This document shows positions 2,082 to 21,224 of a DNA stretch of 64,000 nucleotides, piece by piece. Under the pieces are notes generated by a model. It worked only from the letters and a program-made list of their open reading frames with translations, had not been told where the DNA came from and ran no database searches. The DNA lies in the NCBI RefSeq assembly GCF_036010325.1, contig NZ_CP108549.1:6944001-7008000 (forward strand), given 5' to 3'. The position numbers were made by a program, and so were the translations under genes. Every line of letters begins with the position of its first letter. The stretch's first letter is position 1. The stretch comes from Streptomyces sp. NBC_01210. GTDB taxonomy: Bacteria; Actinomycetota; Actinomycetes; Streptomycetales; Streptomycetaceae.

Positions 2082-3410
2082 ATGCAGAACGCATCTGAGT
2101 CTTCGCTGGTCGGGGAGGAGTACGAGGTCGAGGTCGGGCCCGTCGCACACGGCGGCCACTGCATCGCCCGCACCGAGGAGGGGCGGGTGCTGTTCGTACG
2201 GCACACGCTGCCCGGTGAGAAGGTCGTCGCCCGTATCACCGAGGGCGAGGAGGACTCCCGCTTCCTGCGCGCCGACGCCGTACGGATCCTCGAGGCATCC
2301 AAGGACCGCGTCGAGGCCCCGTGCCCGTACTCCGGCCCCGGGAACTGCGGCGGCTGCGACTGGCAGCACGCCAAGCCGGGCGCCCAGCGGCGGCTCAAGG
2401 GCGAGGTGATCGCCGAGCAGCTGCAGCGGCTCGCGGGCCTCACCCCTGAGGAGGCCGGCTGGGACGGCACGGTCATGCCCGCGGAGGGCGACAAGCTTCC
2501 GAAGGGCGAAGTGCCGGCCTGGCGGACGCGCGTGCAGTACGCGATCGACACGGAGGGCCGCGCCGGGCTGCGCAAGCACCGCTCGCACGATGTCCAGCCG
2601 ATCGACCACTGCATGATCGCCGCCCCGGGGGTCACCGAGCTCGGCATCGAGAAGCAGGACTGGTCCCAGATGGCCACGGTCGAGGCGATCGCCGCGACTG
2701 GATCCAGCGACCGCCAGGTCATCCTCACCCCGCGACCCGGCGGCCGACTGCCACTGGTCGAACTGGACAAGCCGGTCTCGGTGCTGCGCGTCGACGAGCG
2801 CGACGGCGGAGTGCACCGGGTGCACGGCCGCGCCTTCGTGCGGGAGCGCGCCGACGACCGTACGTACCGCGTCGGCAACGGCGGCTTCTGGCAGGTGCAT
2901 CCCCAGGCCGCTGACACCCTGGTGAAGGCCGTGATGCAGGGCCTGCTGCCGCGCAAGGGCGACATGGCACTCGATCTGTACTGCGGGGTCGGCCTGTTCG
3001 CGGGCGCCATCGCCGACCGGGTGGGCGAGAAGGGCGCGGTGCTCGGCATCGAGTCGGGCAAGCGCGCCGTCGAGGACGCGCGCCACAACCTGCAGGGCTT
3101 CGAGCGCGTACGCATCGAACACGGCAAGGTGGAACAGGTGCTGCCGCGCACGCAGATCACCGAGGTGGACCTGATCGTGCTCGACCCGCCGCGCGCGGGA
3201 GCGGGCAAGCAGACGGTGAAGCAGCTGGCGGGCCTGGGCGCGCGGCGCATCGCGTATGTGGCCTGCGACCCGGCGGCGCTCGCGCGCGACCTGGCGTACT
3301 TCCGCGACAACGGCTACAAGCCGCGCACGCTGCGGGCGTTCGACCTGTTCCCGATGACCTCGCACGTGGAGTGCGTGGCTATTCTTGAGCCTGCGGCAAA
3401 GGGCCTCTGA
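2082..3410 (+). CDS. TrmA/RumA-family class I SAM-dependent RNA (uracil-C5) methyltransferase
   Basis: Predicted to methylate C5 of a uracil in tRNA or rRNA using SAM; the exact target base is unknown. The start is ATG 2082 with CTGGAG about 10 nt upstream; an in-frame extension to 2037 has no better ribosome site. The protein has 442 aa. An N-terminal TRAM-like beta domain (GEEYEVEVGPVAHGG) is followed by a 4Fe-4S type cysteine set (C81, C89, C92 in CPYSGPGNCGGC). The SAM site is LDLYCGVGLFAG, then LIVLDPPRAG, the catalytic nucleophile in VACDPAAL (C395) and the general base in HVECV (E430). All expected active-site residues are present. The last 60 bp of this gene recur at 21158-21217, so the 3' end appears to have been used as an integration site with the gene left intact. 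Confidence 0.93.
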   Translation: MQNASESSLVGEEYEVEVGPVAHGGHCIARTEEGRVLFVRHTLPGEKVVARITEGEEDSRFLRADAVRILEASKDRVEAPCPYSGPGNCGGCDWQHAKPGAQRRLKGEVIAEQLQRLAGLTPEEAGWDGTVMPAEGDKLPKGEVPAWRTRVQYAIDTEGRAGLRKHRSHDVQPIDHCMIAAPGVTELGIEKQDWSQMATVEAIAATGSSDRQVILTPRPGGRLPLVELDKPVSVLRVDERDGGVHRVHGRAFVRERADDRTYRVGNGGFWQVHPQAADTLVKAVMQGLLPRKGDMALDLYCGVGLFAGAIADRVGEKGAVLGIESGKRAVEDARHNLQGFERVRIEHGKVEQVLPRTQITEVDLIVLDPPRAGAGKQTVKQLAGLGARRIAYVACDPAALARDLAYFRDNGYKPRTLRAFDLFPMTSHVECVAILEPAAKGL

Positions 3411-3414
3411 CCTG
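3348..3414 (+). repeat. Left copy of 67-bp direct repeat (attL-like, 3' end of RNA methyltransferase gene)
   Basis: This block covers the last 20 codons and stop of the methyltransferase plus 4 bases beyond. It aligns without gaps to 21158-21224, matching 55 of 67 positions, with a 17-bp perfect core (CACGTGGAGTGCGTGGC). Most differences are synonymous, and the encoded tail stays F-P-M-T-x-H-V-E-C-V-A-I-L-E-P-A. A protein-preserving duplicated 3' end is what integration of a mobile element into a gene terminus leaves behind. Confidence 0.75.
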
Positions 3415-4287
3415 TATTTCTTCTAGATTTTGAGGCTTCGGGTGGGCTGGCTCGACCTGTTTTGATGAGTGCACGACGTGGACCGTCTTCTGTGACCAGG
3501 AAATGCGGCTGGCCTGCAGCTTTGTGGATGGCGTACGAGGGGGTGGACGGCTTGTCCTGACTTCGCGATCGCAGAAGGCAAGTGGTGTGACGCTCGTCTG
3601 ACGCTGGTTCCGACGGAGCGTCAGGAGTGCCCGGGTGGTACCAGCTGCCCCTAGTTGCCACTACGTGCGGTCGCCCCAGCCAGACACTGAGGGGCCGGGC
3701 CGCACACCGGTGAAACGGCAATCTGCTGTCCGTCGTGATGGAGCCGGGAAACGGCTCGACGGTTTTGTGCTCCTGGCGCTTGCGACCGGGCAGAAGAACG
3801 ATGCAGGGAGCTGCGTCCAGCGATCCGGCCGGAATCTTTCCATGGCGGTGTAGTGGTTCTACCGCCGCGCCGTCCACCGCACCCTGACGTGGTCGGAACC
3901 ACCAGCACAGTGACCATCCCCCTGTGCGTCACTGCTGCGGTGCAGTCCCTCATCTTCGGAGTCGGCGCGGGCCAAAAGGTCTACCGAATCGGCGACTCCC
4001 GAGCCAAAGCCGCCTGGCACGACAGCTGCTCATCCGCCGCCCAGCCCGACCGAGGTCTGAAACGAACGGTGTAACCAGGGTGGTTGGGTTACTGGCGGGC
4101 GACTCGCGGGCCGCCGCTGCTACGGGTGGATCAGGTCAGGCGCAAGGGTGACGGCACGGGGCCACATGAGACACTGCGTAGGCACGTGGCTACTTGGAGT
4201 ACTGTCTCCCTCTTGGAAGTAGGCAGGGCTTTCTGCTCCGGTTGCCCAAGCGGCTCCCGGTCCGTGTCCGAAGTCAAGGGTGGAAAA
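3411..4287. other. 877-bp gene-poor left end of the island
   Basis: No convincing gene was found in any frame. The short ORFs here have no recognisable motif and no good ribosome site. The stretch carries an inverted repeat TGACGCTC...GAGCGTCA (3588-3623), and the sequence GTGACGCTCGTCTGACGCT (3587-3605) that recurs near the other end of the island at 21059-21077. The promoter of the KAS III gene must lie in the right half, but no clear -35/-10 pair could be picked. No integrase or excisionase remnant was recognised. Confidence 0.5.
3587..3605 (+). repeat. Subterminal 19-bp direct repeat, left copy
   Basis: GTGACGCTCGTCTGACGCT matches 21059-21077 at 18 of 19 positions in the same orientation. 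It sits 172 bp inside the left 67-bp repeat, and the partner sits 80 bp inside the right one. The left copy also opens an inverted repeat (TGACGCTC / GAGCGTCA, 3588-3623). It could be a protein-binding arm site of an integration system or an operator; that is inference. Confidence 0.45.
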
Positions 4288-5298
4288 GTGAGGGATCGGA
4301 GAGTCCCGGCGTCCGTCCTGGTAGGTGCCGGGTCGTGCTTGCCACCACGCCGGGTGGCCAATGAAGACCTGGTCGAGCGCCTGGGTCGGTCGCCCGAATG
4401 GATGTTTCAGCGCTCCGGCATCCGGTTCCGGCACATCGTTGAGCCGGGTACCACCAGTGGGGACCTGGCGGTCGCGGCCGGCCGGGAGGCTCTGGCCCGT
4501 TCCGCGGTCGGCGATGTCGCAGCCGTGGTCGTCGCCACCACGTCGCCGGACAGGCCGTGCCCCGGTACCGCTCCAAGCGTCGCGTCACGGCTGGGCATGA
4601 CTGGGGTGGCCGCGCTGGACGTCCAGGCCGTGTGCGCCGGTTTCATCTATGGCTTGGGTGTCGCGCAGGGCCTGATTGCCGCGGGCACGGCTGACAGCGT
4701 TCTGGTGATCGGGACAGACGCGCTGTCGCTGAGCGTCGCCCCGGATGACCCGACGAGCATGCTCTTCGGCGACGGAGCCGGCGCTGTCGTTCTGCGTTCG
4801 GGCCACCACGAGGAACCCGGTGCCCTGGGGCCTTGCGTGCTGGGCAGCGATGGCGGTGGCCGCGACCTGATCACTGTACGTGGCGGCGGATCTGAGGAAC
4901 GCTCAGCGATCGGCGGTACCCCGGCGGACTCGTATCTGCGTCTGGAGGGGCAAGAAGTGTTCTGGCGAGCAGTGGAGCATATGACTTCCGCCTCCCGAGC
5001 AGCTCTGGACGCCGCGGAATGGAAGCCGCAGGACGTGGACCGGATTGTCTCCCACCAGGCGAACGCACGGATCATCTCCATGCTCGCAGGGCGGTTGGGC
5101 ATCACGGCGGAGGGCGCACTGTCCAATATCGAGCAGGTCGGCAACACCTCGGCCGCGTCGATCCCGATCCTCCTTGATCACGCCAACCGCGCAGGGAGCC
5201 TCAAGCCTGGACACCGCGTCCTGCTGACGGCCTTCGGCGGCGGCTTGGCTTGGGGCGCCACCACCGTCGTGTGGCCGCACCTCGCCCGCCCGCACTAA
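4288..5298 (+). CDS. Ketoacyl-ACP synthase III (FabH-like), cluster-associated
   Basis: A thiolase-fold condensing enzyme expected either to join a CoA-bound starter to malonyl-ACP or to transfer an acyl group. GTG 4288 (V-R-D-R-R-V-P) is chosen because it follows an AAGGGTGG ribosome site and gives the usual 336 aa. The upstream in-frame extension to 4084 is low-complexity and unlike the family. The catalytic triad is complete: Cys116 in QAVCAGF, His256 in SHQAN, Asn286 in GNTSAA. The C-terminus has the family sequence LTAFGGGLAWGA. It is followed after 18 bp by an acyl carrier protein, so the two probably work as a pair making or loading the acyl chain used by the neighbouring NRPS. Whether it condenses or only transfers cannot be told from motifs. 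Confidence 0.88.
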   Translation: MRDRRVPASVLVGAGSCLPPRRVANEDLVERLGRSPEWMFQRSGIRFRHIVEPGTTSGDLAVAAGREALARSAVGDVAAVVVATTSPDRPCPGTAPSVASRLGMTGVAALDVQAVCAGFIYGLGVAQGLIAAGTADSVLVIGTDALSLSVAPDDPTSMLFGDGAGAVVLRSGHHEEPGALGPCVLGSDGGGRDLITVRGGGSEERSAIGGTPADSYLRLEGQEVFWRAVEHMTSASRAALDAAEWKPQDVDRIVSHQANARIISMLAGRLGITAEGALSNIEQVGNTSAASIPILLDHANRAGSLKPGHRVLLTAFGGGLAWGATTVVWPHLARPH

Positions 5299-5316
5299 CT
5301 CATTCGGAGAAGCGGT

Positions 5317-5550: not shown

Positions 5551-5682
5551 AGATCTACGATCTCCGCGGTAGTACACGACCACCAGCAGGATCGTTCGGC
5601 AGTTGCACCGCGTGGCCAAACCGGGGCGGTAGCCCGCCGCGGCTCAAGCACTTATCGAGGGATCGCTGGGGCGGTTGTGGTC

Positions 5683-5719
5683 CGGATGGGCCCGCCGAGA
5701 GATTCGGCGAGCCCATCCG
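5683..5719. terminator. Bidirectional hairpin between convergent genes
   Basis: An inverted repeat CGGATGGGC ... GCCCATCCG has a second stem inside it (CGCCGA ... TCGGCG), giving a long GC-rich hairpin. It lies between the stop of the ACP gene (5550, +) and the stop of the methyltransferase (5752, -). There is no T-run, as is common for streptomycete terminators. Confidence 0.65.
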
Positions 5720-5751: not shown

Positions 5752-6585
5752 TCAGCGGCCTGTGGCGTTCCCGGGGCGCCGGAACATCAGGGCGTGCACC
5801 GTGAAGCGCGACCCGTCGAATTCCGCTCGGCCCGTTGCTCGCCGTTCTTTCAGCAGGGTCAGCATGGTCTCCTTGTGCTCGGCGTACGCCAGGAGCGGGA
5901 TGTCCATCTCGAAGATCTCAAGCGTCTCGGTCTCATAGCCACGCGTGGTGAGTTCCGTGACGGTCCGGGGAATGTCGGCGAGTGAGGAGTGCGCCATGAG
6001 TAGCGTGCCGCCTGGCGCGAGGAGCGTGTCCATGCGCTCGACGACGGAGTCGTACACCGCGCGGCCGCCTCTCCGGGCGACGAGAGCTGTTTCCAGCCCG
6101 TCCTTCCTTGCATAACTCGGGTCGTAGGGCAGGTGCGGCGGATTGGTCATCACCAGATCGAACCGCTCGTCCGGTGTGTACTCCTCCAGCGGCGAAGTGA
6201 CACAGGTCAGCCGCGTGGCGTCGAGACCATTGGCCACCACGTTCACCGCGGTCTGGGCGGCTGAGGCGGGGTTGATGTCCAGAGCGGTCACCCGATCGGC
6301 GCCGGCCGCGAGCAGGGCGACGCTGTAGAGACCGGAACCGGCCCCGATGTCCAGGGCGTTGGCACCCTCCAGGCCAGGAGCGCTGTCACCGTTGAGAGCG
6401 GCGATCAGGCTCAGCCCGCAGTCGGTCGGGAACAGGACCTCCGCGGGGTCCTCCACCGTGAGCCGCAGACGCATGCCGCGGAACTCGAAGATCCCGCACG
6501 AGGGCCGAGCCTCCCACAGCGAGCCGTTCTCGCCGACGGGCAGGACACGACGCCGCGTCAGCGTCGGGATCGGAGTATCGGTCAT
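5752..6585 (-). CDS. SAM-dependent methyltransferase with NPP(Y/H) motif (PrmC/HemK-like fold)
   Basis: A 277-aa class I methyltransferase. The SAM site is LDIGAGSGLYSVALL followed by TALDINP. The later motif TNPPHLPYDP is the Asn-Pro-Pro-(Tyr/Phe) type signature that in PrmC/HemK and N6-adenine methyltransferases positions a planar nitrogen for methylation; the fourth residue here is His. It is the last gene of the minus-strand NRPS run, 97 bp after the FAD-monooxygenase fusion. A role in N-methylation of the cluster product is plausible but unproven; a self-protective modification of a cell component is an alternative. The start ATG 6585 gives M-T-D-T-P-I-P and sits after GAAAGG. Confidence 0.8.
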   Translation of the reverse strand: MTDTPIPTLTRRRVLPVGENGSLWEARPSCGIFEFRGMRLRLTVEDPAEVLFPTDCGLSLIAALNGDSAPGLEGANALDIGAGSGLYSVALLAAGADRVTALDINPASAAQTAVNVVANGLDATRLTCVTSPLEEYTPDERFDLVMTNPPHLPYDPSYARKDGLETALVARRGGRAVYDSVVERMDTLLAPGGTLLMAHSSLADIPRTVTELTTRGYETETLEIFEMDIPLLAYAEHKETMLTLLKERRATGRAEFDGSRFTVHALMFRRPGNATGR

Positions 6586-6682: not shown

Positions 6683-9223
6683 TCACTCGACGAGGGCGGA
6701 GAGCATGGTGCGGACGGAGTCGTCAGCGATGCGCCGTGCGCGCAGCGCCGGGATGAGGCCCTCGACGTAGCAGAAGTTCCAGGCGAGTTGGGTGTGACTG
6801 GTGGTCGCCGTCGCCACGATGGCTCCCATCACCGAGACGCCCGTGAGGAACTGGGCCTCACCGACTCGCCACGAGCCCGCCTGGTCGGGGAACTCGTAGC
6901 GGCCGACGTTGGACAGGCACAGGTTGATCGGCCCCTCCTCGTCCATGAAACGCATGAATGGCTCGCTGTCCGCCAGTGACTTCGGTCCGGTCCAGCGCGG
7001 CAGGCTGATCGTGGCCAGGTGCTCCTGGCGTCTCCGGCGCCACACCAGGTCCTGGCTGATGGCCCGGGCCATCAGCCACAGCGGTCGGCCGGGCTCGTAA
7101 CGGACGCGGGAGGGAACCGTGGCCACGTAGGTGCCGACCTCGTCGGGGCAGACGGCTGGTTCAAGATCATTACGGAAGTCGACCGGCGAGCCGATCGAGA
7201 AGTGTGCCGTCGCCGAGGTTCCCGCGTCCTGGGCGACCGCCGTCACCATCGCGGCGGCCAGAACTCCGTGGACCGTGGTGCCGTGCCGTTTGGCCGCAGT
7301 CACTAGCAGATCCAACTGCTCGGCGGTGAGGAACCTGTGCACCATCCGGGTGCGTCGCTGCTCGAACGGCACCTGATGACTGGGGACGACCCGCTGTGCG
7401 GGGCGCCGCCGGGCCGCCTGCTGTTCCCGGCGCATCATGGCCTTGAACCCAGCGACACCCGCAGCGCCACGGTGGCGAAGAGGGAGAAGATCATCCGTCG
7501 CGGGCAGTGCCCGTCGCGGGGTGGCTTGAGGCCGCGTGCCGCAGTCCAGTTGCGCGGCCAGTTCGATCCACTCCCGGACCAGGGACAGGCACGTCTTGCC
7601 GTCGGCGATGATGTGCGAGGCCGTCAACAGCAGGTCATGGACGTGCCCTTCATTCTCGCCGCCCGTTCCTCCCGAGGTGATCACCACCGCGCGCAGCAGC
7701 GGACCGGCGCGCCAGTCCACACTCCCCACGAGCTCGCGGTCGTTCACCTCGCGCTCCCACCGCGTGTCGGCCGTGGGATCGTCCGGCGGCACGTGGACGT
7801 ACCGAAGCGGGATCTGCCGCCCGTCCAATGGGACGAAGGCGGGGTGCGCTCCGGTGCCGTCGTCGGTGATCGCGACGCGCAGCAAGGGGTGCCGGAGCTG
7901 GAGGGTGTCCAGTGCGCGGCGGTGCAGCGACGTGGGCAGGTGTCCGTGGACGCGGGCGCGGGCGATGACGTTGAGCGGTGAGGTCCGGTCGGCGATCCAG
8001 TACAGGCGCTCCAAGGGGCTCAGCTCACGCTGGACGTTGCTGGATCCGGTGGCCGAACCGTCCGGATAGGCGAGGGCCTGGGCGGTCTGCCGGGCGAGGA
8101 CGTGGCGGGGTACCAAGCGGAAGTAGGCATTACGGACCAGGCGACTCCGGGGGGTGGCCCCCTGAGTCAGTTCGCTCATCCGGCGGGAACCGGCCACCAT
8201 CGCCCTGGTGCGGTCGCGGCGCCGCTCCTCGTAGGCGCGCAGAGCCAGCGCCGGGTCATCACCCGTCATCGGCTCGGCCAGCGTCCGTGCCAGTGCGACG
8301 GCGTCCTCCATGGCCATGCCGGCCCCCTGGGCGAGCGTGGTCAACATGGGGTGGGCGGCGTCGCCGAGCAGGGTAAGGGGGCCGTCGCCCCACCGTTCCA
8401 GGAAGGCCCGGTCACGCGAAGACACGGTGAGGATGTCTGCCTGCGGGGTGGCGTCGATCACGGCCCGCACCTCGTCGGCCCAGCCCTCGTATGCCCGTCG
8501 GAGGAGGTCCTTGACCCGGTTCGGTGCGGGCGTGTCCTCGGGCGTGCTCATGGCCGCCCACCAGTAACAGCGGCCGTGGCCGATGTCGATGAGGCCGAAA
8601 CGCTGTCCGCTGCCCCAGTAGTGGCGCACGGCGCCCGTGGTGAGGCATGGGTGCCGGAAGGGGACGATGCCGAGCCGGAAGAGGTATCCGCTGTCCCACG
8701 CCGGCTCGGGGCCGACGAGGTGGCGCCGTACGGCCGAGTTGAAGCCGTCGGCGCCGATCAGGATGTCACCGCTCGCCGAACGGCCGTCCTCGAAGTGGGC
8801 GGTGACCCCCACGTCGACGGCATCGAAGCCAATGGCGGTCGCCCCCAGGTGGACTGGGCAATTTCCGATCTCCGCCAGCAGAGCCTCCTGGAGGTCCGCG
8901 CGGCTGAGGCAGAAGCTTGGCACGCCCACCTGGTCGCAGGCGTCCTTGAACGGCAGGTCTCTGATCCGTCGGCCGCGCCGGTCCATGATCCTGAACGACT
9001 CCACGGCCTGACCGCGCTTGTCCAGTCCCAGGTCGATGCCGAAACCGGCCAGGGCAGTAACCGCGTTGCTCATGACCGACAGACCGGAGCCGACGTCGCG
9101 CAGCTCGGTGGCGCGCTCGTACACCTCAACGTCGATACCGACGCGCCTCAGCGCGACCGCACACGTCAGACCGCCGATACCGGCACCAACGACCAGGGCT
9201 TTCACACGCCGTCCCGATGGCAT
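6683..9223 (-). CDS. FAD-dependent monooxygenase fused to a condensation/PapA-type acyltransferase domain
   Basis: A single 846-aa frame encodes two enzymes. Residues 1 to about 390 are a group A flavin monooxygenase (salicylate-hydroxylase/zeaxanthin-epoxidase type): dinucleotide fold VVGAGIGGLTCAVAL, mid-motif ILIGADGFNSAVRRHL, and FAD-binding GDAAHPMLTTLAQGAGMAMEDA. From about residue 395 the sequence becomes a condensation-superfamily domain of the PapA/alcohol-acyltransferase kind: entry PLERLYWIADR, catalytic HxxxDG in SHIIADGKT (near residue 538), and a DFGW-equivalent region replaced by NLCLSNVGRYEF. No carrier domain is attached. The NRPS stop lies 4 bp upstream, so translation is coupled. 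In related Ser-Pro systems a flavin enzyme performs a Baeyer-Villiger step after peptide release. The fused half could acylate a hydroxyl or amine of that product. No frameshift separates the halves. Confidence 0.88.
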   Translation of the reverse strand: MPSGRRVKALVVGAGIGGLTCAVALRRVGIDVEVYERATELRDVGSGLSVMSNAVTALAGFGIDLGLDKRGQAVESFRIMDRRGRRIRDLPFKDACDQVGVPSFCLSRADLQEALLAEIGNCPVHLGATAIGFDAVDVGVTAHFEDGRSASGDILIGADGFNSAVRRHLVGPEPAWDSGYLFRLGIVPFRHPCLTTGAVRHYWGSGQRFGLIDIGHGRCYWWAAMSTPEDTPAPNRVKDLLRRAYEGWADEVRAVIDATPQADILTVSSRDRAFLERWGDGPLTLLGDAAHPMLTTLAQGAGMAMEDAVALARTLAEPMTGDDPALALRAYEERRRDRTRAMVAGSRRMSELTQGATPRSRLVRNAYFRLVPRHVLARQTAQALAYPDGSATGSSNVQRELSPLERLYWIADRTSPLNVIARARVHGHLPTSLHRRALDTLQLRHPLLRVAITDDGTGAHPAFVPLDGRQIPLRYVHVPPDDPTADTRWEREVNDRELVGSVDWRAGPLLRAVVITSGGTGGENEGHVHDLLLTASHIIADGKTCLSLVREWIELAAQLDCGTRPQATPRRALPATDDLLPLRHRGAAGVAGFKAMMRREQQAARRRPAQRVVPSHQVPFEQRRTRMVHRFLTAEQLDLLVTAAKRHGTTVHGVLAAAMVTAVAQDAGTSATAHFSIGSPVDFRNDLEPAVCPDEVGTYVATVPSRVRYEPGRPLWLMARAISQDLVWRRRRQEHLATISLPRWTGPKSLADSEPFMRFMDEEGPINLCLSNVGRYEFPDQAGSWRVGEAQFLTGVSVMGAIVATATTSHTQLAWNFCYVEGLIPALRARRIADDSVRTMLSALVE

Positions 9224-9227
9224 GACG

Positions 9228-12200
9228 TCAGCTCTCCCGGCCGGTTCGGGTGAAGGCGGTGCTGATCAACTCCGCGACGGTACCGGCCAGGTGGGCCACG
9301 TGCGGTTCTTCCATGATCGTCAGGTGGTCGCCGGGGACACGGATGATCTGGATCCGCCCGCTGGTCATGGCGCTCCAACCGTTGCAGGGGTCTTGATGAC
9401 GGGTTCGGGCGGCGCTGTGCATGGCGGACAGGACGGCGGGCAGCGGCTCCGCGGCGCGGAGCAGCGTGAGGTCCTGATCCTCGCGCGGGGGCCGGTAGGC
9501 CAGAGTTGCCTGCCAGTGCGCCCGGTAGACGCCGAACAGGCGGCGGATGACGGCCCCCGAGCTGCCGGCTGGCAGGACGCCCCGCTCGCTCGCGACGCGG
9601 GCCATGAACGCGAACTTCTCCTCCAGCGAGCCAAGTCCGTCAGGAAGCACCCGTGCGGGTGCCCCGCCGCCGTCCCGCAGCCAGAGCAACTCGCGGAAGA
9701 ACCACTCCAGCAAGCCGTCGTCGTCGTGCGCGACGCGCGGCCCCTGCTCCAGGGCGGTGGTGTCCAGCACCAGCAGGGCGGCCTGCTCGTCCGCCGCCCG
9801 CAGCCGACGGGCCATCTCGAAGGCGACGAAGCCGCCAAATGACCATCCGCCGATCGCGTAAGGGCCGTGTGGCTGAGCCGTCCGCAGCGCCGTGAGGTAG
9901 CTGTCCGCCAGGTCCTCCACCGTGCACAGCGGTGTGGTGCCGGGCTCGGCGCCGGCGGCCTGAAGCGCGTACAGCGGCTGGGCGTCCGGAAGATGCCGGG
10001 CGAACCCGACGTAGCATAGTACGTTGCCGCCCATCGGGTGGACCATGAACAGCGGCGGGCGGGTGCCCTGCGGGCGGATCGGCACCAGGGGCTCGAACGT
10101 GGCTTTCGCCCCGCCCTGACGCAGCCGGGCCGCGAGTCGGGCGGGGGTGGGTGTCGCGATGAACTCCGACAGGGGGATGTGCACCCGGTAGCGCTGTTCG
10201 ATCCGGACCACCAGCCGCATCGCGGTCAAAGAGGTGCCGCCGAGGTCGAAGAGGCTGTCGTGCACCCCCACCGAGTCCAGGCACAGCACGTCCGCCACCA
10301 TCTCCGTCAGCGCCCGCTCGTAGGCGTCGCGCGGCGCGGCGGCCGGGGCGCGGCCGGGGACGGTCAGCGGGGCGCGGCGCAGTGCCGCGTCGTCGCGCTT
10401 GCCGCTGGGGGTCAGAGGCCACTGGGAGACCCATTGCAGGTGCGAGGGGACCATGTAGTCGGGCAAGGTGGCCCGCAACCGCTCACGGACGCCGACCAGG
10501 TCCTCGTCCGTGCCCTCACCGAGGAGGAAGGCGGCGAGGAATACCTCGCCGTCCGTGCGCCGACGAGCCACGACCGCTGCGTCACGCAGGCCCGGGTACC
10601 GCTCAGCCAGGCCGGTGACGGCCAGTTCTACCTCGGCCGGCTCCACGCGAAAGCCCCGTACCTTGACCTGTGCGTCGTCGCGTCCGAGGAAGACGACATC
10701 TCCGCCGGAAAGCACCATGCCGATGTCGCCCGTGTAGTAGAGCCTGTGGTCTCCGTCCGCGAAGGGATGGGGGACGAAACGCTCCTTGGTCAGGTCCGGG
10801 CGGCCCTCGTAGCCGTCGGCCAGGCAGCCGCCGCCCAGGTAGATGTCGCCCCGCGCCCCGACCGGCACCGGACGCATCCGCTTGTCCAGGACGTGCACCT
10901 CGGCCCCGTCGATGGCGCGGCCGATCGGCGGCAGCGCGGGGAAGGCTGCGGGGTCACCGGTCATGGTGTATGCGGTGACCACGTGGGTCTCCGTCGGACC
11001 GTACTGGTTCTCCAGCACGGCTCCCGGGAGTCTGGCGCACAGCGCGCGGATCTCGGGAGTGACGCGCAGCTGCTCACCGCAGGTGATCATCACCCGCAGG
11101 GCCCGTGGGGTGATGCCTAGCGTGCCGGCGGCTTCGGCCAGTTGGTGAAGGGCCACCGGGGGGAGGAAGACCTGCTCGACGCGCTCGCGGTCGAGCAGGC
11201 GCAGCAGCGCGGGCATGTCGCGCCGCTCCGCGTCGCCGACCAGGCACAAGGTGCCGCCGAAGCACAGTGTGGAGAAGATCTCCTGGAAGGAGATGTCGAA
11301 GCTCAGCGGTGCGTACTGCAGAGTTACACCGCCCACGGCCGCGCTGGGCGCCTCGGCCTGCCAGGCCACCAAGGCGGCCAGGGGGCGATGCGGCATGGCG
11401 ACGCCCTTGGGGGTCCCGGTGGAGCCCGACGTGAAGAGGACGTACGCGGTGCTCTCCGCGTCCGTCCCGCTTCTCGCCCGGCACACCGGCTCTGGCGCGG
11501 CCACCGACTCGGCGGGCAGCAGCAGCGCCGGGTCACCGGCGAGGTGGGCGTACGGGGCTTCGGCCACGACGCGGAAGGGCTGGACCTGCTCGACCATCGT
11601 GGCCAGCCGGGAAGCGGGGTAGCTGACGTCCATCGGGACGACCGCGCAGCCAGCCCGCATGACACCCAGGAGCACCGCCATGGTCAGCGGGGACCGGTTC
11701 ATCGCGATCCCGATCCGGGCGTTCGCCGGGGCGCCGAGCGCGCCCAGCCGCCCGGCCACGTTCTCTACGGCCTCGGCGAGCCGGGCGTAGCTCCACCGCT
11801 CCTCGCCCATCACCATGGCAGTCGCGTCCGGCGTGCGCGCGGCCTGTTCGAGGAAGCGCGCCACGACCGTGGGGCACTCCGCGGGCGAGGCGAGGACGGG
11901 TCGTGAGGCGAGGAAGGCGAAGTCCGCTGTGTCGTGCGGCTGTTCCACCATACGGCGCAGGATGCTCAGGTAGCCGGCCGCGAAGAGATCGCCCTGCTCG
12001 GCCGAGAACGTCGCACCGTCGCAGTCGATTCGCAGCCACATGCCGGCGCCGTCCGGTTCGGTGACCGCGTTCACCATCAGACGGAAGTCGTTCTCCTCCC
12101 AGCTGCAGAACTCCCTGAGCCGCAGACCGGGGAGCCCGAGGACATGGGACAGCTGACGGAAGTGCACGTAGTTGAAGGCGGTGTCGAGGACGGGCCCACC

Positions 12201-15200
12201 GTGGTCCTCCTGGATCGCGCTCAGCGGGTAGCGGCGGTGGGGATGGCCGTCCTGCTCCTGGCGGAAGCCTTCGCGTGCCACGTCCAGCCAACTGTCCCGT
12301 GCGGTGTTCAGGCGGACGGGCACCGTGTTCAGGAAGAGCCCGGCGATGCGTTCGGCTCCGGCCAGTTCGGGCCGGCCGTGGGTGATCAGGCCGGTGGTCA
12401 CGTCACGGGTGCCGGCGAGCATGGCCAGCGTCAGGGCGTGCGCTGCGAAGAGCACGGACTTCACGGGCAGGGAGTGTTCGGCCGCGAAGTGCCGGGCCCG
12501 CTCGACAAGGGGGCCGGGCAGGTCGACCCGCCGCGAGGCCGGCTGGTGGCCGGTACCGGGCAGATGGGGCGAAAATGCCTCGATGGGCACGGGCTCGCAG
12601 CCGGCCAGCTTTTCCCGCCAGTAGCGCCGGGCCTCCTGCGAACGCAGGGCGCTCTGCTCCAGCCGCACGTGGGCCGCCGGCGAAGGAGGCGCCGAGCCCT
12701 CGACGGGGCCGATGTCCAGGCCGAGGCCGTGGGCGTAGTCCTGGAGCAGCTCCTGGAGCAGGGTGGCGACGCTGCCGCCGTCGAGGAGCGCGTGGTGGAA
12801 GCTGAGGACCAGGTCGACGGTGGCGGGCCTCACATGGGCGCGGAACAGGTACAGCGGCGCCCGGTCGAACACGTAGGGGTGGTGGCGGCGTGCCTCGATG
12901 TGCGCGCGTACCTCGGCCTCGGCCGCCGCGCTGTCGAGCGGACACAAATCGGCGATCTCCAGGCCGCCGTACACCTGAGGGCGGACCACCTGCAACGGTT
13001 CTGCGCCGGCCAGGTCGAAGGCCGTGCGCAGCGCCGGGTGCCGTGCCGTCAGCCGGTCGAAGGCACGACGGAACTGCTCCTCATTCCACGGCATCTCCAG
13101 GGTGTACCGGAAGACGTCCCGGTACCTGGCCGACGTTTCGTGCCTGCGGCTGTGGTACAGCAAGCCGAGCTGGATCCGGGTCAGCGGGTAAGCGTCCTCG
13201 GCATCCCGCAGACGGGCCCGGTCGACATCGGCCACCAGGGCGAACGGGGCCAGGGCGGCCTCGGTCCCGGATGCGTCGCACTCCTCGGTGCACGTGGCAA
13301 GGCCGGCCACCGTCGGGTTGCGCAGGAGGTCGGTGAGCGAGAAGCGCAGGCCCCGGGCCTCCGCCTCGGCACGCACCTTGAGCATCGTGATCGAGTCGCC
13401 GCCGAGGGCGGAGTAGTCGTCGTGGATCCCAACGGTCTCATGGCCCAGGACACGGGCCCAGACCTCGGCCAGTACGGTCTCGGTCCGGTTGCGCGGCTGC
13501 CCGCCCGCGGTGGCCTCCGGGACGTCGTGCGGTGGTGGCAGCGCGTCGCGGTCTGCCTTGCCGTTGGGGGTCAGCGGAATGCCGTCGATCCGGGTGAAGG
13601 AGGCCGGAACCATGAACGCCGGCAGTGTCTGCCCGAGCCGTTCGCGCAACAGTGCCGTGTCGATCGGGGCCTCGGCGACGTAGTAGCCGGCCAGGACGGT
13701 TCCCCGGTCGGGGGTGGTACGGCCCACCACGATGGCGTCCCGTACCCCGGGGACGGCGAGCAGGACGGCGGTCACCTCGTCGGGTTCGACGCGGTTGCCC
13801 CGGATCTTGACCTGGCCGTCGATTCGTCCGAGGTACTCCAGGGCGCCGTCCGCGAGCCACCGCGCCAGGTCCCCGCTGCGGTAGAGGCGGCCGCCCGGCA
13901 CGAACGGGTCGGTGCCGAACTTCTCGGTGGTCAGCTCCGGGCGGTCGAGATACCCACGGGCGACACCAACCCCGCCGATGCACAGCTCCCCGGCGACACC
14001 GACGGGTTGCGGCAGGTCGTAGGCGCCCAGCACGTACAGCCTGGTGTTGTCGATCGGCCGGCCGATGGGCACCCGCGCGATGCCGTGAGCGGGGTCGCCC
14101 GGGCAGTCGTAGGACGAGACGTCGACCGTCGCCTCGGTCGGGCCGTACAGGTTCACCAGCCGTACCGGCTGCTTGGTGCCGCTCTCACGGCGCCACCGGT
14201 CGACCAGGCGGTTGAACTGCTCGACCCGGGTGCCGGGCAGGGCCTCGCCGCTGCAGAAGACGTACCGCAGGGTCCGGATGCCCGCGCGGGCCGCTGCCGA
14301 CTCCTCCAGCAGGTCGAGGAACGGGCCGAGCATCGAGGGGACGAAGTGCACGGCGCTGACCTGGTGCTCGCGGATCGCCCGCAGGACCTCGCGCGGGTCC
14401 CGCTGGCCGCCGGGCGGTAGCAGGGCCACGGCGGCGCCCTCAATGGCCCACCAGAACAGCTCCCACACCGAGACATCGAAGGAGACCGGCGTCTTCTGCA
14501 GCAGGACGTCCCGTCCTCCGAGCGGGTAGCGGCGCTGCATCCAGGCGAGGCGGTTGACCACGCTGCGGTGCTCGACCGTGACCCCCTTGGGTTGTCCGGT
14601 CGAGCCGGAGGTGTAGATGACGTACGCCAGGTCACGGGAGGTGGCGAGCGGCTCGACCGGGGCGCCGCTGCCGGTGAGCAGGCCGCCGACGCGCCGCACC
14701 GTCGCGTCCGCGGGAAGGCCGGCGGGAGCGTCGTCATCGACGATCACCACCTTGGCACGGCTGTCACGCAGCAGAAATTGCACCCGCTCGGCCGGGTAGC
14801 CGGGGTCCACCGGTACGTAGGCGCCGCCGGACTTCAGGATGCCGAGCAACGCGACCAGCAACCGCGGCCCCCGCTCCATCATCACCGCGACACGGTCGTC
14901 CGGACCGACGCCCTCCGCCCGCAGGGCCCGCGCGACACGGTTGGCCCGCTCGTCGAGTTCGACGTAGGTCAGCGTCTCCCCGGACGCCGCGATGACGGCG
15001 GTCCGGTCCGGCCGGTGGGCGGCCTGCGCCTCGAACAGTCCGTGCAGGGTGGCCTGATCCGCGTAAGGCACCTGCCGGCCAAGGGCATGCCCGGCGGTGA
15101 GGTCCTGGTACTCGGCCGGGGAGAGCATGGGGACGTCGGACAGAGGCCGGTCCAACAGGTCCAGACCGTGCTCCAAGAGCGTCGTGAGGTGACCCGCCAC

Positions 15201-16421
15201 GGAGGCGATGGGAAGGTCCTCGTCGAAAACGTCACGGGCGTAGTCCAGGTCGACACGGATGTCGGCCGTGTCGTCGAAGGCGGACACCAGGACACCCAGT
15301 GCGTCCTGGTCGTGCGAGGGGGCCATCAGGGTGCCCCGCCGCACCACTCCCGGGACTTCCGGCCGGGACCAGTTCATGTAGGAAAGCGTCACGTCGAAGA
15401 GCTGCCGTGGGCCCTGAGCCGCTGTGGGCACTTCCCGCAGGATGTCGCCGAGCGCGAGCCGCTCATGACGCCGGAGCGAGCGCGTCGTGCCCTGGATTCC
15501 GGTGAGCAGTTCCCGAACGGTCAGCGCGCCGGGTGCTGCGACCCGTAGCGGCAGGGTGTTGGCGAACTGACCGAGAACGTCCCTGTGTCGCTCCGTCGGA
15601 CGGTTGAGGAAGGGTACGCCTAGGACCACCTCTTCGCTCCTGTGCAGGCGCGTCAGGTAGGTACCGAGCATGGCCGCGACGTACGTGAACGGCCAGTAGC
15701 CCGCGGCGCGAACCCGACCGATGAGGGCACCGTCGATCACGAAAGAGTGGCGACCGCGGCCACGCGGACCGCTGTCCGTGGTACGGGTGAAGAGCGCGGG
15801 TGCCAGTCCGTGGAGATATTCCCGGTAGAAGGCACGGTCACGGTCGCCGTCCGTCCCGCTGCGGTAGGCGGCGTCCTCCTCGACGAACGCCAGGTAGGAA
15901 GGTGTTTCTCGAGCGCTCCTCTGCGGATCGCCGTGCGGCGCCCGGGCGTATTCTTGGAGGATCTCGTGGCTCAGCCGGTCGAGGGTCCAGCCGTCGGCGA
16001 CGATGTGGTGTGCCTTGATGTGCAGATGCGTGATATCCGGGCTCTCCAGGAGGAGTGTGGCTTCTACGAGGGGGCTGCTGCTGAGTGGCAGGGCGCCGGC
16101 CATCGATCTGTGCATCCACTCCGCGCAGGCGGTGTCCGGCCCGGGCTCGTGCGAGAGGTCGATCACGGGGACGGGAACATGGTCCTCGGCCACCCGTTGG
16201 AAGGGCACGCCGGCGCGTTCGGCGAACTGCAGCCGGAACGTCTCATGGCGGTGCAACACGCGCTCCGCGCAGACGGCAAGCCGCTCGTGGTCGACGCCGC
16301 CGTCCAGACGCTCGTGGAGAACGCAGTTGAACTGTGGTGACTCCGGAGCCTGGGAGCCGACGGACCATACATCGCGCTGATACGCCGTCAAGGGGTACGG
16401 CGTGTGGTGGTTCATGTTCAA
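9228..16421 (-). CDS. Two-module nonribosomal peptide synthetase C-A-T-C-A-T-TE, predicted Ser then Pro-like
   Basis: A 2397-aa synthetase. Domains in order: C1 (about 1-430, HHIVADGW), A1 (about 450-960, [11 protein letters not shown]), T1 (GGDSITML, Ser near 1008), C2 (about 1075-1500, HHALLDGGS), A2 (about 1510-1990, [11 protein letters not shown]), T2 (LGGTSLTAM, near 2063) and TE (about 2110-2390, GGWSFGG, His in PGDHLTI). Read against GrsA positions, A1 gives DVWHFSLVDK, the same as the EntF serine code. A2 gives DIQFICQVVK, close to the proline code DVQLIAHVVK with changes at 236, 278, 301 and 322. The initial C domain with no loading module implies acylation of Ser. The start is TTG 16421 (11 nt after AAGGA, overlapping the P450 stop as TTGA) or ATG 16415 (17 nt after it). 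There is no epimerase or MT domain. Confidence 0.95.
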
Positions 16422-17712: not shown

Positions 17713-18537
17713 TCAAGGGCGAACGGCGGTCAGGAGTCCGTACCGCAGCTGTGGGACCGCACCGAAGAACCACTCGCCGAGGTCGGCCGCTGTTTCCATT
17801 TCGCGCGCCTCCTGGCCATCGAGATCGCGTGCGGCATTCCGCCAGCCGCAGATCATGCTGTCGTAGCACCGCCGGACGTTCTCGGTGATGTCGGTGTAGT
17901 CCGCCACCTCCAGGCCGGCCTCCCGCAGCAGCTTCCGGTATACGTCAGTACTCAGCGAGAACTTGAAGAAGGCGTACGCGTCGGCCATGCGGGCGGCGTC
18001 CGGGAGAGCGAGCTCACCTTCGAGGCTGTGCTCGGCGATGACCAGCCGCCCACCAGGACGCAGGACCCGTGCGATGTGGCCGATGGCCGCCCCCTTGTCC
18101 TTCATGTGCATCAAGGACTCGATGGCGTACGCGCCGTCGAACGACTCGTCCGGGAGGGGAAGTTCCATGGCATCGGACAACTGGAACGTGGCCCGTCCGG
18201 GAAGCTCCGGCGGCTGCGGACGGCTGTTGGCCAGTTCGACCTGGTAGTCGCTGACACTGACCCCGGTGATCCGCACGGCATGGTGCGCGACGATGCGCGC
18301 CGCGGTGCTCCCGTGTCCACAGCCCACGTCGAGCAGGTGCTGGCCCTCGACCGGGGCGAGGCGTTCGGCGACGAGGTCCGTCAGCCGGTCGGTCGCCACC
18401 TGCATGGGGCTGTCGTCCGCTTCGTCATCCCAGTAGCCGACGTGGATGTTTCCGCCGAGCGCATGGTCGTAGACATCCGTGTGGCGGTTGTAGAAGGTCC
18501 CCACTTCGCCGGAGGTGTGGGGGGGTTGCGTCAGCAT
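17713..18537 (-). CDS. SAM-dependent methyltransferase (small-molecule type)
   Basis: First gene of the minus-strand NRPS operon. It is a 274-aa class I methyltransferase resembling natural-product O/N/C-methyltransferases: [22 protein letters not shown] at the N-terminus, SAM motif [15 protein letters not shown], then [16 protein letters not shown] and [15 protein letters not shown] 18537 (M-L-T-Q-P-P) is preferred over GTG 18552 because AAAGG lies 7-8 nt before it. The P450 follows after 32 bp. A promoter for the whole run must lie in 18538-18937, where an AT-rich patch at 18630-18650 stands out. The atom methylated is not predictable. Confidence 0.88.
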
Positions 18538-18937
18538 GACGTGGCCTTTCACGGTGCGTTGAGTCGTTCGCTGGGGTCGTGGACGCGTCCGGCCAGCCCA
18601 CGCGAAAGCTCCTGCGACGAAGCGGGGGCAAACATATTCAATAAGTAAAAGCAGGCAGTTGAGACGGGGCCGCGAACGGCGGGTTCATCCGATCCCCCGG
18701 ACATACCGTCCGCTGACCCAAAATCACCGCTGAAGAAGCCCTTCGGGGGGCGCTACTGAACACCAAAGGGCGGTACTGCAACCGCACTCGGAGAGCTACC
18801 GCCGATAGGGGGTATACGCCACACAGTGACCTGGCCCCCGGACGTGATCGCCCCGCCACCCAGGTGCTATTACGGCGCATTGCTCAGCCGGGCCCATTCC
18901 GGGAACGCGATTGCAGTACCAGCTCACGCGGATCCGC
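18538..18937. other. 400-bp intergenic region, probable promoter of the NRPS operon
   Basis: No gene is seen. An AT-rich patch (18630-18650, reading TTTTACTTATTGAATATG on the minus strand) is the only sharply AT-rich sequence here and is the best candidate for the operon promoter. The stretch 18790-18830 contains GATAGGGGGTATAC, which resembles the TAGGGG-type half-sites found upstream of the type II thioesterase at 32794. The left part is the leader of the methyltransferase; the right part lies beyond the end of the EF-hand gene. Confidence 0.4.
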
Positions 18938-19489
18938 TCACACACGCCCGAAGAACAGGCTGCCCGGCGCATCCGGGTCGTTCGAGAGGAAGTGCTCGCG
19001 CACCGCGCGGATGAACTCGTGGCGCGAGATCGCGCCGTCTCCATCGGTGTCCAGCTTGGTGAACATGTCCATCGCGTCGGGCGCGTCGCTCTTCCACACG
19101 TCCCTCAGGAACCGCGCGAACTCGTCCTTGCTGATCTCGTTGTCGCCGTCGACGTCGATGACGTCGAAGATCGCGTGGCCGCCGCCCTCGGTCACGTTGA
19201 GCCGGCTGGTGTCGATCACCGCAAGGCGGTTGGCCGTAACGAACTGGTCCTTCGTGAGCCGGTCCCCGTCGACGCCAGCGTGACGGAGCAGCTCCAGCCA
19301 GTAGATCTGGCAGAAGGACTGGAGCGCCCTGGCTCGGCGGTCGTCCTTGGCAAGCTTGTACGCCGTGATGTAGCGGTCGGCGAGCTTCTGATAGTCCGTC
19401 CAATCCAGGTAGCCGTCCTGGTTGGCATCCATGGTCTCGAACGTGCGCTCGAGCTTGATAGTGATGACGTCCTGCGCCGCAGCGGTCAC
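18938..19489 (-). CDS. EF-hand calcium-binding protein (calerythrin-like)
   Basis: A 183-aa soluble protein with calcium-binding helix-loop-helix motifs. GTG 19489 is chosen for the strong ribosome site AAGGAGG 4 nt before it. Three loops are canonical: DANQDGYLDWTD (residues about 21-32), DVDGDNEISKDE and DTDGDGAISRHE. A fourth, AGVDGDRLTKDQ, is degenerate at the first position. Four EF-hands in about 20 kDa match the calerythrin/CabD type of actinobacterial calcium sensors or buffers. There is no signal peptide or transmembrane segment, so it is cytosolic. It lies alone between the NRPS operon and the divergent SDR gene inside the island. Its role in the cluster is unknown. Confidence 0.9.
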   Translation of the reverse strand: MTAAAQDVITIKLERTFETMDANQDGYLDWTDYQKLADRYITAYKLAKDDRRARALQSFCQIYWLELLRHAGVDGDRLTKDQFVTANRLAVIDTSRLNVTEGGGHAIFDVIDVDGDNEISKDEFARFLRDVWKSDAPDAMDMFTKLDTDGDGAISRHEFIRAVREHFLSNDPDAPGSLFFGRV

Positions 19490-19898
19490 GTGTCCTCCTT
19501 GAGGGGAATGTCGCAATCACCATCTCTTGACCCATGAAATGGGACAACTTGACGAAAGGTTCCTGTTCTTCCTTTTCATCCGTTCGGACGCACTCGCCTG
19601 TGGAACGCATTTGCCGCGGCGGACCACCGTGCCTGGCGCGCTCGGTCAACCGCGTGTGCGCCATCGGTCGGCAGGACGTCGCGGCGCGATTGGTCTCCGG
19701 TCGTCCTCCCATGCGAGTTCATCGCGAGCCTTTCCTACGGCGCCCTCGACTCTGGGATGGCAAATACCGACTACAGGCGGAGAGACCCGAAACCGTTCGG
19801 TTGTCATGGGGGTTATCACGGCGAGCAGGCGCAGCGACTCGCCGACGGATGGCTGGCGCGGTCCTGTCTGCCTCCAAGTCCTGAACTGGAGTGAACAA
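19490..19898. promoter_or_regulatory. 409-bp divergent intergenic region between EF-hand and SDR genes
   Basis: This region must hold promoters for two diverging genes. Two interrupted palindromes are visible: CCCAT-GAA-ATGGG (19531-19543) and AACCG-TT-CGGTT (19791-19802). Either could be an operator. Reading frames in it show no family features. It also holds the SDR ribosome site ACTGGAG just before GTG 19899. Confidence 0.4.
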
Positions 19899-20792
19899 GT
19901 GTCGAAATCGTCGGGTCCGACGTCACCCGCAGGCCGGTCCGTGCTGATCACCGGAACCTCATCCGGACTGGGGGAAGCCTGCGCGCTGCACATGTCCCGG
20001 GTGGGCTTCCACGTCATCGCCGGAGTCCGCCGGCCCGAGCACGGAGAACGGCTGCAAGGAGCCGCCACCGGACGGCTGACCCCGGTGATCATGGACGTGA
20101 CGGACGAGAAGTCAGTCAAGGCGGCCGTGCACGAGGTCACCGAGCTGACCGGTGAGGCGGGGCTGTGGGGGCTGGTCAACAACGCGGGCATCGCGGTCAC
20201 GGCTCCGCTGGAGTGCGTGCCGATGGAGCTGATGCACCGGCAGCTCGACATCAATGTGATCGGTCAATTGCAGGTGACCCAGGGGTTCCTGCCGCTGCTG
20301 CGAGCCGGCGCTGGGCGGGTCGTCAACATTTCCTCGGGCCTCGGGAACGTCGCTCTCCCCTTTCTCGGTGCCTACGCCGCTTCTCAGTTCGCCAAGGAGG
20401 CGATCAGCGACACGATGCGCCGCGAGCTCGCTCCGCAGCGGATCCCTGTCGTGGTGATTCAGCCGGGCGCCGTCCTGACCCCGCTCTGGGGCAAGATGTC
20501 CGGCGAGGGCAACCGGGCACTGGACGGCGTCCCGGAGCCGGTCCAGGAGCTTTACCGCCACCCGTTCCAGCAGTTCATGAAGGACAACGAGACCTCGGCC
20601 CGGACCAGCCGCACGACCCCCGACGACGTCGCCCGGGTGATCTTCCGCGCGCTCGTCGCCCAGCGGCCCAAAACCCGCTACACCGTCGGCCGAGACGCAA
20701 CCGGCAGTCGCGTGCTGGCCAGGCTGATGCCCGACCGGGCGTTGGACCGGATCTTCGGCGGATCATCAGCCTGGACACACCTCAGGAGCTGA
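19899..20792 (+). CDS. Short-chain dehydrogenase/reductase with Lys-to-Gln change at the catalytic site
   Basis: A 297-aa classical SDR (retinol-dehydrogenase-like group) expected to use NAD(P). The start GTG 19899 follows ACTGGAG. Cofactor motif LITGTSSGLG, then NNAG in GLVNNAGIAV, catalytic Ser in VNISSGLG, and Tyr159 in YAASQFAKE. The residue four after the tyrosine, normally the lysine that lowers its pKa, is Gln163 (codon CAG at 20385). A single A-to-C change from AAG would give this. It may therefore be inactive, use another base, or the next lysine (K166). It is the last gene before the right end of the island and probably tailors the NRPS product or is a passenger. Confidence 0.88.
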   Translation: MSKSSGPTSPAGRSVLITGTSSGLGEACALHMSRVGFHVIAGVRRPEHGERLQGAATGRLTPVIMDVTDEKSVKAAVHEVTELTGEAGLWGLVNNAGIAVTAPLECVPMELMHRQLDINVIGQLQVTQGFLPLLRAGAGRVVNISSGLGNVALPFLGAYAASQFAKEAISDTMRRELAPQRIPVVVIQPGAVLTPLWGKMSGEGNRALDGVPEPVQELYRHPFQQFMKDNETSARTSRTTPDDVARVIFRALVAQRPKTRYTVGRDATGSRVLARLMPDRALDRIFGGSSAWTHLRS

Positions 20793-21157
20793 CGAACCTC
20801 TTCACGAGGCCGGACCACCTGATCGCAGCCCGCCCTGTCAGCCGGCCGGGGCACGCAGGAGTCGACCCTGTGTGTATCGGGCAATACTCACCGCAGAACT
20901 GGTGCGGTGGAGCTGAGGGAGGCTGCGAACGTGGCGACGAGGTCGTGCGACACGCGGTTCCGAAGATTGCGGCTCGGCCAACCCCAGAGCGGCGCTCATC
21001 CGAGGCTCGATGTCGGCGATCACCCCGGACTTTGGCGGGGCTGGCCTCCGTGTTGGCCGTGACGCTCGTTTGACGCTCGGGGCCCCAAGTTGTCGCCTCC
21101 CGACCCGAGAACCCGGTCCTGACCTGCGGTTTCTTCGGCCTCGCTCTCTGTGACGTC
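20793..21157. other. Gene-poor right end of the island
   Basis: No gene was recognised between the SDR stop and the right 67-bp repeat. It contains the subterminal repeat at 21059-21077. Short minus-strand frames (for example 20838-21023) have no known motif. If an integrase once lay here, no recognisable part remains. Confidence 0.45.
21059..21077 (+). repeat. Subterminal 19-bp direct repeat, right copy
   Basis: GTGACGCTCGTTTGACGCT differs from 3587-3605 at one base. It lies 80 bp inside the right 67-bp repeat. Both ends of the island thus carry the same inner motif as well as the same outer one. Confidence 0.45.
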
Positions 21158-21224
21158 TTCCCTATGACGCATCACGTGGAGTGCGTGGCGATCCTTGAGC
21201 CTGCCACAAAGGGTGCCTGACCTG
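21158..21224 (+). repeat. Right copy of 67-bp direct repeat (attR-like fragment of RNA methyltransferase 3' end)
   Basis: A fragment encoding only the tail FPMTHHVECVAILEPATKGA and a stop, with no upstream gene body. It is collinear with 3348-3414 (55/67). After the stop both copies continue TGACCTG. The following 42 bp run to the end of a convergent gene fragment. This is the layout expected when an element inserts into the end of a gene and displaces the old 3' end. Confidence 0.75.

Follow-up and report, generated by a model that had tools for sequence, protein, structure and literature searches.

Ends of a probable integrase-free integrative island at the 3′ end of a rumA/rlmD-type gene in Streptomyces

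The transfer of antibiotic-type gene clusters among streptomycetes is often inferred without a mechanism. How such a cluster might enter a chromosome as a unit is the question raised by a 64,000-nucleotide stretch of Streptomyces sp. NBC_01210 (contig NZ_CP108549.1, positions 6,944,001 to 7,008,000; here called the window, and its genome G000). In this window, a nonribosomal peptide synthetase (NRPS) cluster lies directly behind an RNA methyltransferase (methylase) gene, and a copy of the last codons of that gene recurs on the far side of the cluster. An earlier reading of the same DNA, made from sequence alone (the sequence-only reading), had interpreted the cluster as an integrative element inserted at the 3′ end of the gene, possibly one mobilized in trans or an old one stripped of its integrase. 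Our analysis supports and extends that interpretation. The cluster very probably occupies an old integrative island, now without an integrase, that lies at the 3′ end of a rumA/rlmD (trmA-like) gene and has kept both of its attachment ends complete.

The two borders of the island carry a direct repeat of the 3′ end of the methylase gene. The ungapped repeat described previously, in which 55 of 67 positions are identical (3348-3414 versus 21158-21224) around a perfect 17-bp centre, CACGTGGAGTGCGTGGC, was confirmed, and it grows 6 bp leftward to 59 identical positions out of 73 (3342-3414 versus 21152-21224); we refer to this 73-nt unit as the core. The second-best ungapped match to the 67-mer on either strand of the window reaches 34/67 (mean, 18.2; standard deviation, 3.6). 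The gene, previously assigned to the TrmA/RumA type, best fits the RumA/RlmD model (TIGR00479; 212.9 bits, with a cut-off of 183.55), and we use the label rumA/rlmD-type for it; SCO5901 is listed as TrmA of S. coelicolor in an excerpt of PMC4932002. The right copy encodes the gene tail DVFPMTHHVECVAILEPATKGA, in frame and followed by a stop codon. Upstream of that tail we found no similarity to the methylase gene and no gene body, and a search of the methylase protein against its own genome matched only the gene itself and the right-copy tail, in agreement with the earlier description of this copy. No tRNA genes were found in the window.

Both ends also carry, on the island side of the cores, a direct arm pair of the form TGACGCTC-N3-TGACGCTC, a feature missed in the earlier note that extends the equation of the repeat with the island ends. 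With at most one mismatch, the arm pair occurs at three places in the 9.2-Mb host genome, two of which are these ends, and a reversed-pattern control occurs at none. In 19 relatives, picked because most had shown several cores, it occurs at 83 places and the control at 6. Judged by reading their positions, over half of these 83 cluster around cores; the others lie elsewhere and include a recurrent one-mismatch form, TGACGCTTTCTTGACGCTC, that seems unrelated. Attachment sites of lambda-type tyrosine recombinases consist of a core plus arm repeats on the island side. The combination of core and putative island-side arms found here looks like an attachment site of this kind.

The core is widespread in the genus. 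With two candidates scored per genome, it has matches in 375 of 392 genomes, and among the matches listed at least 21 genomes have two cores on one contig and strand, 1.7 to 153 kb apart. Another 40 loci of 20 kb came from the highest ranks of a list ordered by similarity and are a nonrandom sample; 33 of them start at the methylase gene, and in 22 of these 33 an arm pair with up to two mismatches lies within 400 bp downstream, only two arm pairs being found away from cores in all 40. We then pooled 167 distinct cores (at least 46/73 identical, in loci of at least 2.5 kb, with the remote cluster-match loci L268-L308 excluded), of which 71 were filed as gene-attached and 96 as orphan, the former being defined by an upstream open frame longer than 80 codons; by this rule at least one orphan (G136, L043) was misfiled. 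An arm pair precedes 77 of the 96 orphan cores, and 27 of these are followed by a second pair, marking tandem junctions; 10 orphan cores have a following pair only and 9 have none. Gene-attached cores show a following pair in 47 of 71 cases and none in 23, with a single core scored as having a preceding pair. The spacing is constant, the preceding pair sitting at −96 to −89 in 77 of 78 cases. As judged from sequence, this asymmetry between gene-attached and orphan cores is that of attL versus attR.

Nearly all orphan cores (94/96) keep an in-frame tail and stop codon, with at most four substitutions, and their information content by codon position is 1.45, 1.60, and 1.08 bits, so that variation peaks at third positions. 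Usable tails are expected in orphan cores if the gene regularly acquires its end from an island core. In relatives, the same architecture encloses other cargo, often in tandem; unlike these relatives, G000 shows no tandem array at the window locus. The cargoes include an amidase/TetR/MFS set, an esterase/LuxR set, what we take to be a conservon-like operon, and, in locus L252 of G080 (1316-12323), two helicases with an MmeI/Eco57I-type methylase, presumably a DISARM-like defence set. The sequence-only reading had pointed to the same 3′ end in other genomes as a place to look for different cargo and for an integrase; many different cargoes were found there, together with a candidate integrase in other islands.

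Two individual loci show further features. In G379 (C1:5660578 and 5813501), the start of an island is duplicated within one array: at least 1.37 kb following the gene-attached core recurs, at 99.4% identity, behind an orphan core that lies 153 kb away. In locus L174 of G159 (8171-15109), a 2,312-amino-acid RHS-repeat protein ending in a DddA-like deaminase domain is encoded within a complete island that also bears the recombinase IntT, described below.

Comparison of cores and their junctions indicates where strand exchange takes place. The consensus of orphan cores starts GACATCTTT and that of gene-attached cores GACCTGTTC; from about position 10 onward, the two show few, scattered differences only. 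The sharpest case is an 8,676-bp block that is 99.77% identical in G359 and G379, the methylase genes of which are 94.27% identical over 1,100 bp. At the junctions, the two genomes are identical from core position 10 onward, with unrelated DNA to the left. The block directly follows the methylase gene in G359 and follows another island in G379, where it has an extra 0.4 kb or so shortly past the left core. It encodes an ABC-transporter ATPase, a CHAT-domain protein, and a DUF7676 protein, and the G359 contig that bears it contains no PF00589 match. A second, weaker case is a 5.2-kb block without a detected integrase, 96.4% identical in G197 and G306. In seven further pairs, with shared DNA upstream or downstream, the switch falls around or within the core but is less sharp. 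These junctions indicate that the crossover lies inside the core. The linear plasmids of S. sp. NBC_01201 and Alt3, which carry tandem copies of these ends, were rejected as an insertion/empty pair; they share 20,164 bp at 99.9% identity, but their divergence, which sets in within the core and immediately beyond it, is not that of a clean insertion.

The candidate recombinase, which we call IntT, is a 365-amino-acid tyrosine recombinase encoded close to right ends in G159 and G225; by position, G228 (frameshifted) and G379 have it there as well. In 15 paired-core genomes, PF00589 matches, compared by position, fall outside the islands except in G136. Relatives of IntT (E ≤ 1e-40) occur in 53 of 392 genomes: 46 have relatives at least 64% identical over about 200 residues or more, 3 have short pieces, and 4 have remote relatives only (32 to 37%). 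With 1.5-kb flanks, 1 of 30 IntT loci showed a core plus arm. With wider flanks, 18 of 20 loci (19 from ranks 2 to 21, plus G379) had an arm pair 0.3 to 13 kb downstream on the same strand, accompanied by a core in 16 of the 18; in G105 and G112 no core was recognised with the arm pair, and in G237 and G109 arm pair and core are both missing. A small HTH_17 protein, probably an excisionase, and a shorter PF00589 protein precede IntT in G112, and an AbiEii-type gene (PF08843) lies between IntT and the end in several loci. No tRNA sites were found in 31 loci around IntT. IntT is 30% identical to the VWB integrase and, among the matches listed, at most 37% identical to phage proteins; it is a tyrosine recombinase like the phage VWB-type integrases and differs in its siting near the right ends of islands with rumA-type cores. 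IntT was not found in viral contigs, 11 of which hold an arm pair without a core, probably by chance. A plasmid or phage origin was considered and rejected: the right end matches no phage and three Streptomyces plasmids, of which two are near-identical and carry tandem copies.

These features suggest the following mechanism. A tyrosine recombinase would join a circular form of the island to the gene tail, with the crossover in the conserved centre of the 73-bp core. The core of the island would then provide the last codons and stop codon of the gene (attL), and the displaced gene end would be left at the far side (attR). The arm pairs at both ends would bind the N-terminal arm domain of the recombinase, which likely belongs to the IntT family, encoded near the right end in a minority of islands. 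The window island may have entered with an integrase that was then lost, or it may have been moved in trans, which appears to have happened recently to integrase-free islands elsewhere.

The content of the window island (Table 1) is as first described, a single biosynthetic cluster. Pfam searches of the NRPS, with the best stretches displayed, showed two AMP-binding, two Condensation, and two PP-binding stretches and one thioesterase. Pfam scans of the open reading frames (ORFs) and a tyrosine-recombinase profile revealed no integrase or integrase remnant in the island, in keeping with the earlier failure to recognise one, and the Pfam scans likewise showed no transposase and no replication or TraB-type transfer gene domain in the island ORFs scanned. 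The right flank had been read as a convergent methyltransferase gene. The methyltransferase-like end of that gene stands, but the whole looks like a decayed chimera, in which, by frame reading, an amidotransferase-like start runs out of frame into the methyltransferase-like end; ORF 21267-21818 has no Pfam match. This chimera is probably a deletion scar beside the island.

Table 1. Features of the window island, its ends, and its flanks
Feature	Position	Strand	Remarks
RumA/RlmD-type rRNA (uracil-5) methyltransferase gene, 3′ end serving as attachment site	2082..3410	+	Pfam TRAM and tRNA_U5-meth_tr; TIGR00479 above cut-off
Left core (attL-like), 73 nt	3342..3414	+	Final gene codons plus TGACCTG
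Left arm pair TGACGCTCGTCTGACGCTG	3588..3606	+	+246 from left core start
Inverted GAGCGTCA	3616-3623		Beyond left arm pair
β-Ketoacyl-ACP synthase III-like gene	4084..5298	+	Start uncertain
Class I methyltransferase	5752..6585	-	
FAD monooxygenase fused to PapA-like/condensation acyltransferase	6683..9223	-	
Two-module NRPS, C-A-T-C-A-T-TE	9228..16421	-	Domain order inferred
Cytochrome P450	16418..17869	-	Start uncertain, overlaps next gene
Methyltransferase	17713..18552	-	
EF-hand calcium-binding protein	18938..19516	-	
Short-chain dehydrogenase/reductase	19527..20792	+	Start uncertain
Right arm pair TGACGCTCGTTTGACGCTC	21060..21078	+	-92 from right core
Right core (attR-like)	21152..21224	+	Orphan 3′ gene end, in frame with stop
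Decayed chimera, chromosomal right flank	21267..21760	-	Domain names read from translation
Molybdopterin oxidoreductase/flavodoxin reductase fusion	21989..26077	+	Outside island

Homologues of the cluster, with 77 to 90% identity, are present in seven named genomes: S. goshikiensis, the closest at 90% (monooxygenase), S. cellostaticus (77%), S. sp. TBY4, SID3343, S. echinoruber, S. actuosus, and WM4235. The 392-genome set adds clusters in G119 and G130. In the seven, the flanks past the β-ketoacyl-ACP synthase (KAS) gene match neither one another nor the window (no blastn match over 150 bp), showing that the cluster moved as a unit, as had been proposed. Descent and cluster similarity are uncoupled: SID3343 has a methylase gene only 60% identical to that of the window and an NRPS 86% identical, whereas G119 has the closest methylase gene of the cluster-carrying set (88%) and one of the least similar NRPSs (81%). 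In three genomes the cluster adjoins this attachment system. In TBY4 (G278) two cores 24.2 kb apart enclose it, and its orientation is opposite to that in the window; in S. echinoruber (G395) its start is about 0.5 kb past a core that has a left arm, again in the opposite orientation, and no right core was seen; and in G119 it lies in the window orientation about 14 kb downstream of the methylase gene, behind a left end, with no core between. The cores of TBY4 and S. echinoruber are on a contig other than that of the methylase gene, implying that islands of this kind also occupy other places. The fetched flanks of the other five named genomes showed no core.

Several results weigh against the integrative reading, or against parts of it. 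The sequence-only reading had asked for strains in which the methylase stop codon adjoins the convergent gene; no empty site with the right flank of the window was found, and the immediate flank is absent from the fetched relatives. The next gene has relatives on the other strand in G267, 17 kb downstream, and in G108, 9 kb downstream, showing that the right flank is not conserved. When gene-attached and orphan cores were compared in their downstream DNA, the matches were shared left ends or duplicates, with no clear empty/occupied pair. The window cores differ at 14 of 73 bases, and the insertion is therefore not recent; together with the decayed right flank, these differences indicate that it is old. 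No relative of IntT (E ≤ 1e-40) was found in G000, where 5 of 29 candidates were scored, and none was found on public plasmids, although two near-identical plasmids carry tandem ends. IntT may also not be the only enzyme, since a second tyrosine recombinase, TR389 (389 amino acids, from G136, with relatives in 30 of 392 genomes at E ≤ 1e-20), lies next to an end of this kind in G160 and, as a degraded copy, in G136, and an island of G280 (L190, 974-12004) holds another tyrosine recombinase; no IntT relative was reported in G280 at E ≤ 1e-40. TR389 was rejected as a general enzyme: a core plus arms was found in 1 of 30 short-flank loci (G160), and with wide flanks an end was found in 1 of 9 loci (G160 again), or 2 of 10 counting the source, G136. 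We therefore keep it as a second enzyme and not the main one. At its loci L076 (G136:C1:5658171-5673489) and L099 (G160:C127), the ends have arms at about +124/+144, and G136 has a degraded copy near the end and an intact copy about 14 kb from the core.

The frequency of integrase-free islands was estimated from 53 bracketed islands of 1.4 to 30.5 kb, each with both cores inside the fetched stretches (one plasmid island being present in two records). The profile detected a tyrosine recombinase in three (G136, G159, and G280) and none in the other 50, and two serine-recombinase seeds gave no match in the set. Bracketing favours short islands and misses most IntT-bearing ones, which also counts against the reading offered here, because the integrase-free share may be overestimated. 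The G359 island is outside the set because its right core has a 2-bp deletion.

How far the window island exemplifies something larger can be stated only tentatively. A genus-wide, integron-like system at the rumA/rlmD 3′ end of Streptomyces, in which mostly recombinase-free cassettes of 1.4 to 30 kb with one architecture are shuffled in trans by IntT-type enzymes, has in our estimate a little less than an even chance of being correct. On this hypothesis, the recombinases would come from a minority of cassettes, each insertion would swap the last codons of a housekeeping gene, and the cassettes would carry biosynthetic clusters, defence and toxin genes, or single operons.

For the window island itself, the corresponding possibility is that it never needed an integrase of its own and belongs to a cassette-like pool mobilized in trans or in cis by the IntT-type enzymes of other islands. 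This is a serious possibility, though we stop short of calling it probable: the 50 of 53 bracketed islands, the 27 cores with arm pairs on both sides, as in tandem arrays, and the near-identical integrase-free island in two species are all consistent with it, but the bracketed set favours short islands, and the 49 of 392 genomes with an IntT relative at 64% identity or more (3 with short pieces only) do not include G000. It is also possible, though short of probable, that an old autonomous element lost its integrase and is now fixed, its ends being fossils on which nothing acts. The 14 differences between the window copies, the lack of an IntT relative among the candidates scored in this genome, the decayed right flank, and the existence elsewhere of very short islands of 1.4 to 3 kb would fit such an origin. 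Arms and core are nevertheless kept at both ends here, and the integrase-free blocks shared across species (99.77% in G359/G379 and 96.4% in G197/G306) imply that absence of an integrase does not mean that an island is fixed. We consider it rather doubtful that homologous recombination or transposition brought the cluster into an island that was already there, the ends of which would predate it. The occurrence of the cluster in both orientations relative to the ends (in G119 as in the window, in G278 and G395 inverted) does suggest that cargo is not rigidly linked to ends; no transposase was found among the island ORFs scanned, however, and capture concerns the loading of cargo rather than the insertion of the island, so that it is compatible with the integrative explanation. 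That the repeat is due to chance, or is a gene-conversion or duplication scar of the gene end involving no mobile element, would fit the sharing of just 73 bp and no gene body but is extremely improbable, given that many relatives have such an orphan copy, preceded by an arm pair at −89 to −96, and differing content between the copies, and that chance similarity in the window tops out at 34/67.

Among known systems, the integrative island resembles cis-mobilizable elements (CIMEs) in keeping its att ends while having no integrase and, by Pfam scan of its ORFs, no transfer genes. It differs from actinomycete integrative and conjugative elements (AICEs), having no int, replication, or TraB-type domain in the ORFs scanned, and from integron cassettes, in that an IntT member scores 41.5 bits against TIGR02249 (cut-off, 265) and the islands span 1.4 to 30.5 kb. 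Papers on integrative and conjugative or mobilizable elements of streptococci, which belong to another phylum, reportedly mention rumA (PMC7563491, PMC9652813, and PMC4701971), in line with the insertion hot spots named in the sequence-only reading. The CIMEs and defective AICEs of PMC9513070 are similar integrase-free islands with direct repeats, in tandem at one site; their accretion at that site is described there, and cis-mobilization is proposed. They differ in using tRNA genes and rlmN as sites and in having AICE genes (traB, rep), whereas the window system has a rumA/rlmD-type gene, arm pairs at fixed distances, and biosynthetic-cluster cargo. An earlier survey located most AICE tyrosine integrases at tRNA genes (PMC3218068). 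PAISt of Streptomyces turgidiscabies, inserted at the bacA 3′ end, shares insertion at a gene 3′ end and tandem arrays; it has a site-specific integrase, modular excision, and capture of att-bearing plasmids, and its authors liken it to an integron (PMC4057263). PAISt is, however, one very large integrative and conjugative element with an 8-bp palindrome as its site, compared with a small integrase-free island and a 73-bp core in the window. The ssrA islands of Dehalococcoides, too, lie in tandem after one gene, with 3′-end repeats and an integration module in only part of them; they carry niche genes and are thought to move with their neighbours, but serine recombinases and a 20-bp tmRNA-gene repeat set them apart (PMC3146451). 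In a search of mainly open literature, no description of the site, its ends, or IntT was found for Streptomyces in the portions seen.

With a defined site, ends, a candidate recombinase, and a cluster present in eight genomes with different flanks, transfer becomes directly testable. A search for the core plus arms offers a way to delimit islands and to find unrecognised clusters, the site is a possible new integration site for vectors, and a family of integrase-poor movable blocks may help to explain how clusters move between species. The prodigiosin cluster of S. coelicolor may adjoin the same site: according to an excerpt of PMC8102152, homology to the prodigiosin cluster extends to SCO5899, and SCO5901 is the gene listed as TrmA.

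A third, diverged core is present in G000 on the other strand (−), at about 1.37 Mb (C1:1369885-1369956). It has a different left end, with arms at about +124, and no right core was found for it. An AbiEii-like gene 440 bp from this core is 90% identical to a copy in G218. The third core is probably what is left of a second island, one situated far from the methylase gene.

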